A stretch of DNA of 64,000 nucleotides from Amycolatopsis sp. 2-15 (GTDB taxonomy: Bacteria; Actinomycetota; Actinomycetes; Mycobacteriales; Pseudonocardiaceae): the NCBI RefSeq assembly GCF_030285625.1, contig NZ_CP127294.1, forward strand, positions 1,684,001 through 1,748,000, read 5' to 3'. Under the pieces are notes generated by a model. The model was not told where the DNA came from, made no database searches, and saw only the letters and a list, made by a program, of their open reading frames with translations. Both the position numbers and the translations under genes were made by a program. This document shows, piece by piece, positions 8,314-15,485 of this stretch; positions within the stretch are counted from its first letter, which is position 1; each line of letters begins with the position of its first letter.

Positions 8314-9497
8314 CGTCTGCCCCTCGTCTTGTTCGGCAGGGCTTTGTTCGGCCCGCTCTTGTTCGGGACCGGCGTGTTCGGCACGCGCACCTCCCACTCC
8401 GTGCCGCGGCCCGGAGCGCTGTCCAGGGCGGCGGTGCCGCCGAGATCACGCACCCGGCCCCGGATGGACTCCACCACACCCAGGTGCCCGTCGGCCTCCG
8501 CGCGCGCCAGCCGGCCTTCGGGAATGCCCGGGCCGTCGTCGCGAATGCTCACCACGATCTCGCCGCCCAGGTCCTCCAGCAGCACCCACGCGCGGGCATC
8601 GGGACCCGCGTGCTTCTCCACATTGGACAGTGCCTCGCGCGTGACGGCCACCAGTTCCGAAGTCACGTGCGCCGGCAGGTCGACCGTGCCCGCGGGCGTC
8701 GCGACCTGAACCGAAGGCGTGGCGAGCAGCTGCAACGCCGAACGCAGGTCCGCGGTCCCGTTGCTCGCCACCGCCCACGACGGCTCGGTGGTCACCAAGG
8801 CGCGCAACGCGATCTCCTGCTCACCCGCCAGCCGCGCCAGGTCGGCCGCCTCGCCGCCGACCTTCATGCCACGCCGGCGCACGCGCGCGAGGACCTGAAG
8901 CACGCTGTCGTGGATCGAGCGCGCGAGCCGTTCCCGTTCGGCCGTCGCGGCTTCCGTGCGCAACGCCAACGCGAGCGCCTCCGCCGAACGCCGTGCCGTG
9001 GTGGCCGCCATGCCGATCAGCACACTGCTCGCGCAAAGCAGCACGCCGTCACGGAAGACGTCGAGGTCCAGTCGTTCGCGCGCGATGCCGGTGCCGATGG
9101 CGACCACGAGTCCCGCCAGCACCCCGCCGCCCGCGCCGAAGCGCGTCGCCGCCGCGATCGGTCCCACCGCGGCCCACACCGTGGTGATCAGCGGCGCGGC
9201 CTCGGCGTACTGCGTCGGCGACAAGATGAAGGGCGACAACAACATCAGCCCCGTCGTCAGCACGACGTCGAGCACCACCAGCCACCGCCACCGGCCGCCT
9301 TCACGCAGGTAGGCGAGGCCCGACACCAGCGTCCAGCCGCCCATCGCGCCGACGACGGCCCACGCCAGCCACGCACGCTGGAACTCACTGCGGTGGACGA
9401 TCACCACGCCGAGCGCGAACGCCCACGTGACCACACGCAGCAGCACGACCCCGCGCCACAGCGGCGTTGCCGGGTCGCGGGTGGCCGGCGTGCTCAC
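8310..9497 (-). CDS. MacS-like sensor histidine kinase (DUF5931/HisKA_3)
   Basis: Membrane sensor kinase of 395 residues from the GTG at 9497, which overlaps the stop of the AI-2E transporter gene (GTGA). Five or so hydrophobic segments in residues 15-165 form a membrane sensor domain of the DUF5931 type, as in Streptomyces MacS. The HisKA_3 motif ERLARSIHDSVLQ has the phosphorylated His at about residue 196, and an ATPase domain follows with a DDGPGIPEGR G-box. The C-terminus ends in a short Asn/Pro/Lys repeat (PNxxPNK). The stimulus is unknown; the location suggests an envelope signal. Confidence 0.86.
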   Translation of the reverse strand: MSTPATRDPATPLWRGVVLLRVVTWAFALGVVIVHRSEFQRAWLAWAVVGAMGGWTLVSGLAYLREGGRWRWLVVLDVVLTTGLMLLSPFILSPTQYAEAAPLITTVWAAVGPIAAATRFGAGGGVLAGLVVAIGTGIARERLDLDVFRDGVLLCASSVLIGMAATTARRSAEALALALRTEAATAERERLARSIHDSVLQVLARVRRRGMKVGGEAADLARLAGEQEIALRALVTTEPSWAVASNGTADLRSALQLLATPSVQVATPAGTVDLPAHVTSELVAVTREALSNVEKHAGPDARAWVLLEDLGGEIVVSIRDDGPGIPEGRLARAEADGHLGVVESIRGRVRDLGGTAALDSAPGRGTEWEVRVPNTPVPNKSGPNKALPNKTRGRR

Positions 9498-10735
9498 TTC
9501 TCCTCGTCGTCGCCCCGAGTCGGCACTTCGGCTTCGTCGGAGCCCGGCTCGGCGTCGTTGGGTTGCGCCGCTTGGTCGTGGAGCACGTCGACGCTCTCGG
9601 GATCGGGGTCGTGCTCGTGCAGCAGCGACCGGATGCCCGCGTTGAGCACGGCCAGCAGCGGCACGGCCAGCAGCGCGCCGGCGATGCCCGCGGCGACCAG
9701 CCCGGTGGCGATCGCGAGCACCACGGCCAGCGGGTGCAGCCGCACGGCGCGCCCGAGCAGCAGCGGCTGCAGCACGTGGCTTTCCAGCTGCATCACGCCG
9801 ATCACGATCGCCAGCACGATCACCGCGCCGATGAAACCCTTGGTCACCAACGCGATCAGTACCGCGACGCTGCCCGCGATCACCGCACCGATGATCGGGA
9901 TGAACGCGCCGAGGAACACCAGCGTCGCCAGCGGGATCACCAGTGGCACACCGACGATCCACAGCCCGATGCCGATGCCCACGGCGTCGACCACGGCCAC
10001 GGCGGCCGTCGCGCGGATGTAGCTGACGAGCGATGCGAAACCGCGGCGCCCGGCCACGTCCACGCGTTTGCGCACGCGCGTGGGGACGCCGCGCACCAGG
10101 AACGACCAGATCTGGTTACCACCGGCCAGGAAGAAGATCGTGACGAACAGCGTGAGCACGAAGCCGGTGAGGATCTCGCCGACGGTGCCCGCCGTGGTCA
10201 GCGCGGTGTTCGTGAGCGAGGCCTGGTTGTTCTGGATGAAGCCGATCGCGTTGCTCAGGAAGTCTTGGATCTGCTCCTGGCGCAGGTGAATCGGCCCGTC
10301 GGTGAGCCAGTTCTTGATCTGGGTGAGGCTGTTGTTCAGCTGCTGCTGCAGCTGCGGCAGGCCACTGGAGAACTGCGTGATCACGAACGTGAGCAGCCCG
10401 CCCAGCACCGCCAGCCCGGCGATCAGCACGATCGCCGTGGCGAGCCCGCGCGGGAACCGGATGTGCACGAGTTTCTCGACGGCGGGCGCGAGCAGCGCCG
10501 AAAGCAGCAGCGCGATCGAGACCGGGATGACCACCGCCGACAGGTAGCCCATCAGCCAGATCACTGCGTACAGCGCAGCGATCACGACGATGAACCGCCA
10601 GCTCAGGGCCGCGGCCACCCGGAGCCCGCGCGGGACAAGGCCCGTGACGTCGTTTGTCTCGGGGAGGAACGGTTGCTCGCGCCGTCCGCGTGCTGGGTGG
10701 CTCACGGGTCTCACCGTATCGGTCCGCCCTGTCAT
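9494..10735 (-). CDS. AI-2E family transporter (TqsA/PerM-like permease)
   Basis: Integral membrane protein of up to 413 residues with about eight hydrophobic segments: a pair near 45-90, one near 95-125, then a soluble stretch with QLQQQLNNSL, then several helices. The conserved FLGAFIPIIGAVIAG and PLLLGRAVRLHPLAVVLA segments are typical of the UPF0118/AI-2E family, whose members export small molecules or act in sodium/proton exchange; a role in AI-2 signalling is not established in actinobacteria. It is first in an operon with the coupled MacS and MacR genes. A GTG at 10705 is an alternative start, because the ATG lacks a clear ribosome-binding site. Confidence 0.82.
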   Translation of the reverse strand: MTGRTDTVRPVSHPARGRREQPFLPETNDVTGLVPRGLRVAAALSWRFIVVIAALYAVIWLMGYLSAVVIPVSIALLLSALLAPAVEKLVHIRFPRGLATAIVLIAGLAVLGGLLTFVITQFSSGLPQLQQQLNNSLTQIKNWLTDGPIHLRQEQIQDFLSNAIGFIQNNQASLTNTALTTAGTVGEILTGFVLTLFVTIFFLAGGNQIWSFLVRGVPTRVRKRVDVAGRRGFASLVSYIRATAAVAVVDAVGIGIGLWIVGVPLVIPLATLVFLGAFIPIIGAVIAGSVAVLIALVTKGFIGAVIVLAIVIGVMQLESHVLQPLLLGRAVRLHPLAVVLAIATGLVAAGIAGALLAVPLLAVLNAGIRSLLHEHDPDPESVDVLHDQAAQPNDAEPGSDEAEVPTRGDDEEK

Positions 10736-11052
10736 TCCGGGCGAATCGCGGGGCCGCGGGCGGCGGCGCGTCCGGTGGTTCGCCCGAAGTGGCGCTTGAC
10801 AGCCGACTGCGGAGTAACCCCGCTCCGCCAGTGATGATCACCGAAAGTGAGATCAGACCACACTCTGTGTCGTTCACACGATGGTGGCATCAAGTCGTGT
10901 CAAGGATGCGTAACGGGTGTGAGTCCTGGTTCTCTCGGTTCCACACCCGGCGATGAGGAACGCATTTCCGCGATTCCGCGAAAGCCGGCGGGAACATCGA
11001 AACCCCGAAAGTCTTTCCCGAGCCAGACGTTTTGAGTTGAGGAGAAGCACGA
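10736..11052. promoter_or_regulatory. Divergent promoter region
   Basis: About 320 bases between two divergent genes, so it should carry promoters for both. A TTGACA-like hexamer is at about 10797 on the plus strand, but its partner is not evident. An imperfect inverted repeat with TGATC / GATCA arms occurs around 10834-10858. Just before the downstream gene there is a good ribosome-binding site (GAGGAG, about 11040). No gene is supported here. Confidence 0.4.
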
Positions 11053-12117
11053 GTGACGAACGCGGCGAACGAGGGGCGGGGCGCGATGCGCGTCGGCCGT
11101 CTCGCGTCGCGTGCGCTGTTCGTCCTCGGTGGCGCGGTCGCCGCGACCGCCGCCGCGTGGGCCGTCTCCTCCTCCGCCGCCTCGGCCGACACGATCCAGG
11201 CCGGCGACGTCAACGCGAGTGTCACGCCGGTCACCGACGCGACCGTGACCAACCTCGGCGACGTCACGCGCGGTGTCTCGGAGTTCGCCGGCAACGTCGC
11301 CGGTACCGCCGCGGGCGCCGTGCAGAACGTCTCCGCGTGCGAGCAGGACGCCACCACGTGGTCCGAGCCGGGCCATGACCGGCCGATCTGCTCGCTCGAC
11401 CCGCGCGATCACATCGGTGGCCCGCACCGCGACCAGGTGCGCACCACGGCCGACCACGAGGTGTCCGGGCGCGTCAGCGACGCCGTGACCGACCTCGGTG
11501 AAGACGCCGTGCTGCACCCCGCGGCGCGCACGCTCGGCGCGCTCGAGCACATCGCCCGCAAGCCCGAGGACACCCGCCGCGTGATCGACGAGGCCACGGC
11601 CCCGTCGCCCGAGGCGCAGGACTTCGGCCGCAAGGTGTGGGACCTGCTCGACCCGCGCCACACGGGGTCGCTGGTCGACCTCCCCGAGCTCCCGGGCTCG
11701 CCCGTCGAGCCGGCCGCTCCCGTCTCGGCCGCCACCGGCACCACCGGTGACACGGCGCAGAACCTCGGCGCCGCAGCGGTTTCCACCTCCGACGCGCTGC
11801 GGGCGATCTTCTCCCGCTCCGCACACGAGGACTTCGCGGCAGCAGGCGACAGCGTCGACACGCCTTCGCGTGGCGACCACCGCAACCTGCCCGACCCGTT
11901 CTCCCCGGCGCAGCTTCCGATGGCGCCCCCCTCCATCCCGACTGTCCCCGGCGGCGGCAACAACACCGCCCCCGGTGGTCACCTCGACGGCCTCAACTTC
12001 GGTGTCCCCTCCTGGGTCACCGCTGCCGTCGACAACGCCGTGGCGGGTTCGACCCGCGCCGGTGTGCGGCACACGCCGCTCAGCCCGGGCCACCAGCCCG
12101 GCGTCACTCCTGACTGA
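11053..12117 (+). CDS. Secreted Ala/Thr/Pro-rich protein of unknown function
   Basis: 354 residues from a GTG with GAGGAG about eight bases upstream. A basic n-region (RVGRLASRALF) and a hydrophobic core ending ASA at about residue 50 form a long signal peptide. The mature N-terminus is rich in V/T/N/G with motifs such as DVNASVTPVTDATVTNLG and AGNVAGTAAGAVQNVSA, reminiscent of the chaplin-like repeats of the next gene. It continues as a hydrophilic, low-complexity Pro/Gly/His-rich chain without membrane anchor. Two Cys lie in the first third. It precedes the giant chaplin-like gene by 221 bp on the same strand and may be its partner. No known family recognised. Confidence 0.7.
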   Translation: MTNAANEGRGAMRVGRLASRALFVLGGAVAATAAAWAVSSSAASADTIQAGDVNASVTPVTDATVTNLGDVTRGVSEFAGNVAGTAAGAVQNVSACEQDATTWSEPGHDRPICSLDPRDHIGGPHRDQVRTTADHEVSGRVSDAVTDLGEDAVLHPAARTLGALEHIARKPEDTRRVIDEATAPSPEAQDFGRKVWDLLDPRHTGSLVDLPELPGSPVEPAAPVSAATGTTGDTAQNLGAAAVSTSDALRAIFSRSAHEDFAAAGDSVDTPSRGDHRNLPDPFSPAQLPMAPPSIPTVPGGGNNTAPGGHLDGLNFGVPSWVTAAVDNAVAGSTRAGVRHTPLSPGHQPGVTPD

Positions 12118-12124
12118 TTCACCT

Positions 12125-12212
12125 CACCCGCGGGGTCGTTGACGCGCCCTGAAGCCAGAGCACCTTTGTCGTGCCTGCTTCGCGTCACCGACTGAACCCC
12201 GCGGGTTTTCTC
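12125..12212. terminator. Possible long-range hairpin after the secreted-protein gene
   Basis: ACCCGCGGGGT at about 12126 can pair with ACCCCGCGGGT about 70 bases later, followed by TTTTCT. The loop is long, so this is only a possible terminator; it would separate the two secreted-protein genes. Confidence 0.3.
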
Positions 12213-12338
12213 GCGATGCGCCCCTTTTCCGCGCTCGCACCGCACCACCCCTCTGGTGCGCTTTCCCTCAATTGATCACGGCGAAAAGCGCACCTCCACA
12301 AGCCCGCAAGGGAACCCGAAATGAAGGAGAAAAACCCC

Positions 12339-15300
12339 ATGCAGACCTGGGCAAAGCGCGGACTCCAGACCGCGTTGGTCACGGGTGGGTTGTTGATGCT
12401 GGGCACCGGCATCGCCTCGGCCGACGAAAACGTCAACCCTGACACCCCGGCCTCCCCGCTCGACCTCAACGTCACCGTTCCGGTCGACGTCGACAACAAC
12501 GCCATCGGCACCCCGCTGGGTCAGGTGGACGTCCCTGGTTACCAGGGTGAGGTCAGCACCAAGCCCGTCACCTCCGCTGTGAAGGACGCGCTCGCTTCGG
12601 CGAAGGCCCCCGGCGGTGCGGCGAGCAACCTGACGGACAGCCTGCCGAAGGCCGACGCGCCGCGGCAGCTGACGCCGACCCACGACGCCCTCAAGGGCAA
12701 CAAGGTCTCCGGCGACCTCGTCGTGCCGATCCAGATCGTCGACAACGCCGTCGGTGTGCTGGGTGACGCGAACGTCGACGGCAAGTCGCACGAGCAGACC
12801 TACTCGCACAACCAGGACATCGCGACCTCCGGCAAGAACTCCGGGCTCGCGGGCAACGTCGTCGCCCTCGACTGGGCGCTCCCCGTGCAGCTGGCCGGCA
12901 ACGGCGTCGGCCTCGCGGGCGGGTCCGGCGCGGTGCACGGCGGCTCGGCCAGCCAGAGCACCACCGAGACCGGCAACATCGACACCACCGGCAAGGGCTC
13001 CGGCCTGTCCGGCAACGTCGTCGCCGGCCAGTTCGCCACCCCGGTGCAGGTGACCGGCAACGCCGCGTCCTGGATCCTGGGCAACGGCTACAGCCAGTAC
13101 ACCGCCGACACCTCGGCGACCTCGGGCGGCTCCGCGCTGACCGACGGCAAGGGCGGCGCCGGCACCGGCAACGTGGTGGGCGCGCCCATCGCCCTGCCGG
13201 TGAAGTTCAACGGCAACGCCGGTGGCGTGTGGGGCTCGGACGCCGACGCGACGTCCTCCTCCTCGGCCGACGCGAAGGCCGGCGACGAGCGGCCGGGCAG
13301 CCTGGCCGGCACCCCGACCTACCTCGAGACCGACGGTGACCAGTCGTTCCTCGGCGGCAACGCCGCGGCGGCGCAGCTCAGCCCGATCGCGAACGTCGCG
13401 AGCGTGGCGGGTTCGTGGATCGGCAACGCGACGACGGGCATGTCGCCCGAGCGTTCGGTCGGCAGCTCGCACTCGAGCACCGTCGACTCCGGCGGCTTCG
13501 TCAAGACCTCGGGCCAGCAGGCCGCGGGCGCGGGCAACGTGGTCGACCCGGCCGTGGCCCTGCCCGTCGAGGCGTGCGGCGTCGGCGGCACCTACATCGG
13601 CAACGCGCACGCCGCGTGTGACAACACCACCGACGCCAACGCGGGCGACGGCAGCTACACCCGTGGCAACGACACCGTGCTGGGCGGCAACGTCGTCAAC
13701 AGCCAGGTGGCGGGCGCTCCCGAGGTGCACGGCATCGGTGGCAGCCACATCGGCAACGCCTCCGGCACGTCGAACGAGACCAAGACCGTCACGGCCGGTG
13801 GCTACGACGGCAGCCAGGGCAACGACTCCTCGGGCTCGGGCAACGTCGTCCAGGTCCCGGTGGGCGTGCCCGCCGAGGTCTTCGGCGTGGGTGGCTCGTT
13901 CATCGGCCAGGGCTCGGCCGACGCGCACGAGACCAAGGTCGTCCAGGGCGGCGGCGGCGGCAACACCGCCGACGACAACGGCTTCCTCAGCTCGAACCTC
14001 GGCACCGTCCCGGTGTCGGCTCCGGTGCAGGTCTTCGGCATCGGCGGCGCGTTCGTGGGCCAGGGCCACGGCAACGCCTCCGGCGACACCACCTCGGGTG
14101 CCGGCTGGGACACGCACGCGACCGGCACCAAGGGTGCGGGCGCGGGCAACATCATCGAAGCTCCGGTCTCGCTGCCCGTCCAGGGCCACGGGATCGGCGG
14201 CGCGGTGGCCGGCATCGGCACCGCGCAGGCCGACAACCTGACCGACTCGACCGCGGGCGGCCACGCCAGCACCGACGGTCAGGGCGGCGGCCTCGCCGGC
14301 AACATCATCAAGGCGCCGGTCGGCGGTGCGGTGAACCCGTCGGGCGTCGGTGTCGCGGGTGCGGCGCTGGGCCACGCGGCCGGTTCGAACGACGTCGCGT
14401 CGACCGCGGGTGGCGACTCGCAGACCAACGGCGACGCCGGTGCGGTGGCGGGCAACGTCATCGGTGCCGACCCGCTGGCGGCCGTCCCGGTCGTGGCGGA
14501 CTCGGTGTCCGCAGCGGGCGTGTCCTCCGCCGACAGCATGAACACGCAGGACGTGACCGCTGCCGGTGACGACACCACGTCGGGTCTCGAGGGCTCGGTT
14601 TCGGGCAACATCCTCGACATCCCCGTCAGCGCGGTGCCGCACGTGGTGACCAACGCCGTTTCCGCGGCCGGTGTCGCCCACGCGACCGGTGACAACAACA
14701 TCACCGCGACCAACGGTGGGACCCCCACCACCGACGGTGACGGAAGTGCGCTCTCGGGCTACAACTTCTACCACCACCTGCCGGTCAACGTCCCGGTCTT
14801 CGGCGTCCCGCTGGAGCTGCTGGGCACCGCGACCGCGGAGGGCACCGACAACACCGTCGTGTCCGAGCCGTCGATCGACACCCCGCTCGGCAACGAGCTG
14901 GGCGCCGCTCAGCTGCCGGCGCTGCCGGCTCTGGCGTCGCTCCCGACCTCCGGCGCCACGCCGGGTCTGCCCGCGCTGCCGGGTCTGCCCGCCCTGCCGG
15001 ACGCCGGTGCGCTGCCGGGTCTGCCCGCCATGGCGATGCTGCCGGGTGCCGAGCGCGCCGACCTGCCGGTCAGCGGGCTCTCGGGCCTGAACGAGCTGGG
15101 CCAGCTCAAGGGCGCCACCTCCCTGCCGACCGTGTCGGGTCTGGGCAGCGGCGTGCACCTGCCGGGTCTGCCCTTCGGTGGCGAGCGCGCCGACGCTCCG
15201 GCTCTGCCGGCGCTGCCCGCTCAGCTCCCGGTGAAGGCGAACCTGCCGACGCTGCAGCAGCTCCCCGCCGTGACGGCGCTGCCGGCTCTGCCGGGCGTGC

Positions 15301-15485
15301 CCGCCACGCTGCCGACGTCGGGTGTCCCGGCGCTGCCGACCGCGGGTCTGCCGGCTCTGCCGACGCTGCCCGCCGTCCCGGCGCTGCCCGTGGCTCAGGT
15401 CCCGGCGCTGTCGGGCATGGACTCCTCGCCCCTGGCGATGATCCAGCAGCTGGCCGCGAAGGTGACCGGCTTCTTCAAGAAGTGA
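12339..15485 (+). CDS. Giant multi-repeat chaplin-like secreted protein
   Basis: 1048 residues from the ATG at 12339, which has AAGGAGA just upstream; an in-frame ATG 18 bases earlier overlaps that site. A signal peptide (about 1-30, ending GIASA) is followed by about 15 diverged repeats of roughly 50 residues (to about residue 855). The repeat core is SGNVV/GNII, a PVxLPVxxxG strand, a Gly-rich hydrophobic segment (GVGGTYIGNA) and a Ser/Thr/Asp spacer, matching the chaplin domain of Streptomyces hydrophobic amyloids. Only one repeat keeps the cysteine pair (Cys413 and Cys427). A tail of LPALP-type repeats (about 856-1025) ends in a basic amphipathic helix. It is likely a surface protein of aerial hyphae or the envelope. 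A strong terminator follows. Confidence 0.75.
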   Translation: MQTWAKRGLQTALVTGGLLMLGTGIASADENVNPDTPASPLDLNVTVPVDVDNNAIGTPLGQVDVPGYQGEVSTKPVTSAVKDALASAKAPGGAASNLTDSLPKADAPRQLTPTHDALKGNKVSGDLVVPIQIVDNAVGVLGDANVDGKSHEQTYSHNQDIATSGKNSGLAGNVVALDWALPVQLAGNGVGLAGGSGAVHGGSASQSTTETGNIDTTGKGSGLSGNVVAGQFATPVQVTGNAASWILGNGYSQYTADTSATSGGSALTDGKGGAGTGNVVGAPIALPVKFNGNAGGVWGSDADATSSSSADAKAGDERPGSLAGTPTYLETDGDQSFLGGNAAAAQLSPIANVASVAGSWIGNATTGMSPERSVGSSHSSTVDSGGFVKTSGQQAAGAGNVVDPAVALPVEACGVGGTYIGNAHAACDNTTDANAGDGSYTRGNDTVLGGNVVNSQVAGAPEVHGIGGSHIGNASGTSNETKTVTAGGYDGSQGNDSSGSGNVVQVPVGVPAEVFGVGGSFIGQGSADAHETKVVQGGGGGNTADDNGFLSSNLGTVPVSAPVQVFGIGGAFVGQGHGNASGDTTSGAGWDTHATGTKGAGAGNIIEAPVSLPVQGHGIGGAVAGIGTAQADNLTDSTAGGHASTDGQGGGLAGNIIKAPVGGAVNPSGVGVAGAALGHAAGSNDVASTAGGDSQTNGDAGAVAGNVIGADPLAAVPVVADSVSAAGVSSADSMNTQDVTAAGDDTTSGLEGSVSGNILDIPVSAVPHVVTNAVSAAGVAHATGDNNITATNGGTPTTDGDGSALSGYNFYHHLPVNVPVFGVPLELLGTATAEGTDNTVVSEPSIDTPLGNELGAAQLPALPALASLPTSGATPGLPALPGLPALPDAGALPGLPAMAMLPGAERADLPVSGLSGLNELGQLKGATSLPTVSGLGSGVHLPGLPFGGERADAPALPALPAQLPVKANLPTLQQLPAVTALPALPGVPATLPTSGVPALPTAGLPALPTLPAVPALPVAQVPALSGMDSSPLAMIQQLAAKVTGFFKK

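Follow-up and report, generated by a model that had tools for sequence, protein, structure and literature searches.

The window analysed here is a stretch of 64,000 nucleotides from Amycolatopsis sp. 2-15 (contig NZ_CP127294.1, positions 1,684,001 to 1,748,000). It carries, side by side on the plus strand, a short gene (11053..12117), called the partner here, and a very long one (12339..15485), whose product, called the giant, contains a tandem array of units that resemble the chaplin domain. Chaplin domains are the units that coat the aerial threads of Streptomyces, and many relatives of Amycolatopsis, including antibiotic producers, grow aerial hyphae. The open reading frame (ORF) of the giant spans 12321..15485 and encodes 1054 amino acids (aa). 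Translation is likely to start at the ATG at 12339, giving 1048 aa, because AAGGAG precedes this codon and seven of 22 aligned sequences have ATA in place of the ATG at 12321. Residue numbers below are those of the ORF.

An earlier note on this DNA, made from the sequence alone, had described a gene at 12339 with repeats, a leucine-proline (LP)-rich tail and an amphipathic end, and this layout is borne out. The conserved leader, MQTWAKRG...ASA (12339..12422), varies little or not at all at most of its positions across 51 aligned sequences and reads by eye as a signal peptide, which agrees with the suggestion that the giant is secreted. An N-terminal half unit, delimited by eye (residues 47-71, 12459..12533), is followed by 13 tandem chaplin-derived units (residues 126-811, 12696..14753) found with hidden Markov models (HMMs) and Pfam. 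The units are 51-62 aa long, nine of them exactly 51; every one scores 44-65 bits against an HMM made from those same 13 units, and their mean identity to one another is 0.29 (0.14-0.47). A degenerate last unit (residues about 812-850, 14754..14870) scores -2.5 bits with the unit HMM and found no match in Pfam, and it is modelled as strands by AlphaFold2 (AF2). The estimate of about 15 repeats was therefore fair if the half unit and the degenerate one are counted with the 13. The array leads into the LP-rich tail (residues 851-1035, 14871..15425), with 27 LP dipeptides and proline and leucine fractions of 0.18 and 0.20, and then into a short cationic C-terminus (15426..15482) with an isoelectric point of 10.3 that looks amphipathic by eye. 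The units are acidic, and their grand average of hydropathy is 0.53 in the cores, -0.78 in the polar remainder and -0.04 over whole units.

The proposal that these repeats are chaplin-like is supported by several comparisons. The Pfam model ChpA-C (PF03777) matches the whole giant in five stretches with 32.8 bits (cut-off 21, E 6.1e-8). When the units were searched one by one, as the earlier note had suggested, the outcome was mixed: units 6 and 8 passed the cut-off, units 4 and 10 matched below it, and the other nine of 13 had no chaplin match in Pfam, although cutting the protein into single units also drops a preceding part that the ChpA-C model covers. Neither result that would have spoken against chaplins, a lack of any significant unit match or a better match to an unrelated repeat family, appeared; the only other Pfam hint was to PGRS, in unit 3. 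An independent HMM was made from 13 Streptomyces-type domains at eight loci of one family, f20, which, to judge by its chaplins, is probably Streptomyces. It found ten domains in one register in the giant, the best with 16.4 bits (E 3.6e-4) and most others individually weak (E up to 3.1). Block-shuffled controls, of which 979 of 1000 were scored, reached a top total of 7.0 and a top domain of 9.2 bits. Furthermore, comparison of profile with profile recovered a shared core of 28 columns (95.9%, E 6.1e-9). The GN turns typical of the core are retained unevenly in the units: the first is strong (G 90%, N 94%), the second in part replaced (79% and 34%) and the third weak (92% and 28%). Judged by sequence, the units descend from chaplin domains, and the relation is real but old.

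The rest of the genome was searched with the same model. Across 10.05 Mb in a single contig (E <= 10), the top five ChpA-C matches all lie inside the giant ORF. The sixth reached 14.2 bits, and at this loose limit matches also occurred in five of 14 control genomes, none of them above the cut-off. Applied to 148 genomes sampled across the class, this search returned many domains of about 100 bits in family f20, often in short frames, which shows that it works. The giant is the only convincing chaplin found in this genome, although the search might overlook one that has diverged strongly. Neither the giant nor the partner matched NCBIfam at E <= 1, and a PDB sequence-profile search returned nothing at E <= 0.01.

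The cysteines of the array show a distinctive pattern. In the window, they are confined to one unit, unit 6 (13530..13682; 21.7 bits with ChpA-C on its own), as Cys419 and Cys433, 14 apart; the earlier note had this right, its Cys413 and Cys427 being the same residues counted from the ATG at 12339. There are 396 homologues of the giant at E <= 0.001, and the 120 listed provide 1632 units. Both cysteines are present in 116 of these units, the first only in two and the second only in 19, so that the pair is complete in 116 of the 137 units with a cysteine at either place. Independence would predict 9.8 units with both, a figure that serves as a guide only, since the proteins share ancestry and the two columns had been picked with hindsight. 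Most of the proteins carry a single pair (90), with none in 17 and two in 13, and different proteins hold the pair in unit 1, 4 or 6. This is the pattern that would be expected of a disulphide within the unit that is kept or lost pairwise. The array as a whole is also conserved in order: each window unit matches the unit of the same number in relatives out to Prauserella, with mean identities of 0.54-0.86 compared with about 0.29 for other units. Among nearer relatives the array is thus frozen. In L063 and L066, the two most distant proteins compared, only six of 13 units are in place.

The partner is a protein of 354 aa with a GTG start and a signal-like N-terminus. Pfam holds no known domain for it, and PHROGs gave nothing at E <= 0.01. 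Its middle is variable and its end is fixed: the heptapeptide QPGVTPD (12094..12114) closes 119 of 120 listed homologues, counting that of the window, and two cysteines are present in 117 of the 120. The association with the giant is very regular. An ORF ending in [QR]PGxxPD lies 84-251 bp before the giant at all 80 kept loci, with QPGVTPD itself in 64, and the pattern was absent from the control strands (0/80 upstream in reverse, 0/160 downstream). A match to the partner was found upstream of the giant at 41 of 44 usable loci, four of the original 48 having been left out because the start of the giant was not found by pattern; L045, L053 and L065 had no such match. The genome of the window contains the tail pattern once. 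In a sample of 80 genomes of the family, a slightly wider form occurs 42 times in 40 genomes, and the reversed pattern not at all. By hand count, 35 of the 42 lie at most 300 bp upstream of a match to the giant or its leader, three within 2 kb, and four are without one; the exact pattern is missing from 12 of the 44 family genomes with a strong match to the giant. It had been suggested that this neighbour shares repeat-like motifs such as 'AGNVAG' with the giant. This part of the earlier note does not hold: the best BLASTP alignment has an E value of 0.30 and lies in a different stretch, homology between the two proteins was rejected, and the partner is not chaplin-like.

Some loci depart from this arrangement. 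For example, L160 encodes a protein of 484 aa with the same leader and no chaplin units, and a QPGITPD end lies about 216 bp upstream of it; leader and tail can therefore exist without the solenoid predicted below. L161 and L163 are shorter proteins that have the same or a similar leader and lack chaplin units.

The giant is widely distributed. All 60 genomes sampled from the genus contain it, and its closest listed relative, also from Amycolatopsis, is 97% identical. Some match occurs in 63 of the 80 family genomes if leader-only matches are included, and at a best E <= 1e-50 the number is 44 (a hand count that includes the genome of the window). Among the loci that were named (the best 80 of 178, a few of them sharing a genome), 13 genera and one unplaced metagenome-assembled genome are represented: Amycolatopsis, Prauserella, Saccharomonospora, Qaidamihabitans, Herbihabitans, Haloechinothrix, Thermocrispum, Actinophytocola, Lentzea, Umezawaea, Tamaricihabitans, Labedaea and Saccharothrix. 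The listed homologues are mostly called 'PE-PGRS family protein' or 'beta strand repeat-containing protein', and 'chaplin' appears once. Among the matches listed by a literature search of open-licence PMC papers, none was recognized as being about the giant. Second copies were also seen. The one at L165 (G039) is diverged, measures 1219 aa and has several cysteine pairs, and a similar match (33-36%, frame of 1212-1267 aa) is present in five of the 60 genus genomes; another second copy, in G012 (46-49%), has an internal stop.

Two non-coding features accompany the gene pair. Upstream of the partner lies a conserved element, TGTGTCGTTCACACGATGGTGGCATCAAGTCGTGTC (10866..10901), of the form TGTG...CACACGATGG..GGCATCAAG, which may be a promoter or operator. 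Its core, CACACGAT, is found upstream in 34 of 45 sequences, and in one more it sits at the start codon of the giant itself; several of the ten misses had too little upstream sequence. The core is present in 69 of 80 loci. GTGTNNNTCACACGAT occurs only once in the genome, and a genome-wide regulon search with the element returned only the giant/partner locus. A -35 box for sigma-BldN (CGTAAC) was considered and dropped, being found upstream in only two of 27 sequences. A divergent ORF of 413 aa (9494..10735, minus strand) starts near the element, which may serve either gene. The second feature is the intergenic region on the plus strand (12118..12338), which contains a conserved Shine-Dalgarno block in an alignment of 22 sequences and a strong predicted RNA structure (z -4.67; none of 200 shuffles equally stable). 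The predicted fold has a GC stem and then a U run, as though to limit read-through.

With 51 aligned sequences, AF2 predicted a confident beta-solenoid for the units, with a predicted local distance difference test (pLDDT) score of 64 for the rank-5 model, and a piece of five units alone was still modelled confidently. Such a solenoid would fit a scaffold role. The functional amyloids CsgA, of curli, and FapC count among the nearest known systems. The five-unit model resembles non-amyloid helices at least as closely as it does CsgA, and no specific fold family is therefore claimed. Our preferred reading, to which we assign a probability of roughly 55%, is that the giant is an exported, chaplin-derived solenoid of the surface coat with a dedicated secreted partner. 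The leader would export the giant, and the 13 units would fold as one long rod, each contributing about 28 residues of chaplin-like sequence and a polar segment of Gly, Ser, Thr, Asn and Asp. The LP-rich tail would be a spacer, and the cationic C-terminus would anchor the giant non-covalently at the envelope. Solenoids packed on the hyphae could then form the coat that small chaplins make in Streptomyces, and the partner, recognized through its fixed C-terminal tail, may be an assembly factor, cap or linker that helps the rods to form the surface layer. The data establish the chaplin ancestry, the tandem build, the broad conservation, the association of the two genes and the pairing of cysteines; fold and export are predictions, and anchoring, packing, the coat and the task of the partner are inferences. 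A bolder and rather unlikely version holds that the Pseudonocardiaceae swapped many small self-assembling chaplins for a two-gene system of a covalent, pre-registered solenoid and a secreted partner, with the QPGVTPD tail and the leader of the giant, both nearly invariant, being read by a putative dedicated machinery of export and assembly; at L160, tail and leader are retained even though the solenoid is lacking.

Other explanations can account for parts of these data. The same rod could serve singly, as an adhesin or a spacer in the cell wall, a beta-solenoid of chaplin origin that neither polymerizes nor renders the surface hydrophobic. One-to-one conservation of units among nearer relatives would fit with a rod whose length is defined. 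The acidic units of near-neutral hydropathy agree with this reading too, as does the likeness of the five-unit model to non-amyloid beta-helices. The chaplin ancestry speaks against it, however, as does the fact that no other chaplin was found in the genome for the job of coating. Furthermore, an excerpt from a survey of Streptomyces development genes that includes A. mediterranei names chaplin-like proteins in several other genera and none in the Pseudonocardiaceae (PMC4255298). We regard this alternative as possible, though unlikely.

The prediction of a solenoid may itself be questioned. AF2 is described, in an excerpt from one report, as over-predicting beta-solenoids for perfect repeats (PMC11795689). 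Together with the content of G, A, S, T and N in the units (59%) and the score of the rank-5 model, this bias would allow for a repeat region that in the cell is mainly disordered or flexible, the solenoid being an artefact. The units are diverged, however, at 29% identity, unlike the perfect repeats of that excerpt; the model drew on 51 aligned sequences and stayed confident for five units, and unit-by-unit conservation and paired cysteines suggest structure. Disorder therefore appears improbable to us. Least probable by far is that the giant is a PGRS-like glycine-rich protein whose chaplin match is an effect of composition. The PE-PGRS proteins of mycobacteria do share glycine-rich repeats and the database label with the giant, and unit 3 reaches 15.7 bits with PGRS. 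This lies under the PGRS cut-off of 27, whereas ChpA-C exceeds its own; no PE domain was matched (Pfam, E <= 1), shuffles that keep local composition score lower, and the leader matches those of polychaplins, which are considered below.

The conserved giant, masked by misleading database names, offers itself as a candidate for the coat that is missing from Amycolatopsis relatives, and giant and partner together may be how these bacteria coat their surface. A covalent array of amyloid-type units would offer a test of functional amyloid built by fused subunits rather than by polymerization. In addition, the partner, with its fixed C-terminal heptapeptide, represents a protein family without a domain match in Pfam, NCBIfam and PHROGs searches.

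The chaplins of Streptomyces (ChpA-H) share with the giant a signal-like leader and the core of about 28 residues, which in Streptomyces-type domains has the form GNxVQxPVxxPVxxxGN. The first cysteine is in the same or the next position, but the two cysteines are 18 apart in Streptomyces chaplins and 14 in unit 6 of the giant, and Streptomyces chaplins are more hydrophobic than the units of the giant. Short Streptomyces chaplins have one domain. Long ones have two, according to an excerpt from one paper (PMC13251363), and are sortase-anchored according to excerpts from two (PMC4255298, PMC13251363); the giant holds no L[PA]xTG sortase motif, the mark of such anchoring.

Closer in architecture are the polychaplins of Nonomuraea, Planomonospora, Streptosporangium and Microbispora, which belong to the Streptosporangiaceae. 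Annotated as 'chaplin family protein', they measure 436-782 aa among the best 120 of 711. The earlier note had regarded the length of the giant as unusual; its very long array is confirmed, but multi-chaplins of 436-782 aa occur in many Streptosporangiaceae, and length alone is therefore not novel. Polychaplins, like the giant, are built of tandem chaplin units, four to seven of which are found by the giant-family unit HMM in each of four examined. Their leader is homologous to that of the giant (hhalign 95.4%, E 1.7e-8), and three of the four have an LP- or AP-rich tail. Their cysteines are 14 apart in 672 of 780 intervals in the 120 listed proteins; in giants the commonest interval is likewise 14 (77), followed by 15 (54), in a tally of 165 rows that mixes listed homologues and loci partly from the same genomes. 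The two groups differ in unit number (4-10 strict-core units in polychaplins, 12-14 in listed giants) and in cysteine content, the pair being kept in 700 of 801 strict-core polychaplin units and cysteines being few in giants. A transmembrane-like C-terminus (mean hydropathy of at least 1.6 over 19 residues within the last 60) is found in 118 of 120 listed polychaplins and in none of 120 listed giants. A C-terminus common to both, 'GM[DN]SS' by eye, was rejected, as the profiles did not match (hhalign 0.1%). No significant match to the partner occurs near polychaplins at the four Streptosporangiaceae loci examined. L075 (G158) is a small polychaplin of 346 aa, with four units, a linker rich in Glu and Pro, and a C-terminal stretch that is hydrophobic. 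Set against these systems, the giant is a variant of the chaplins and not a new kind of protein. What is new is the array conserved one to one among nearer relatives, cysteines that occur nearly only as pairs, the confident AF2 prediction of a beta-solenoid, a fold towards which AF2 is biased, and the partner gene, whose family is the least known part of the system.
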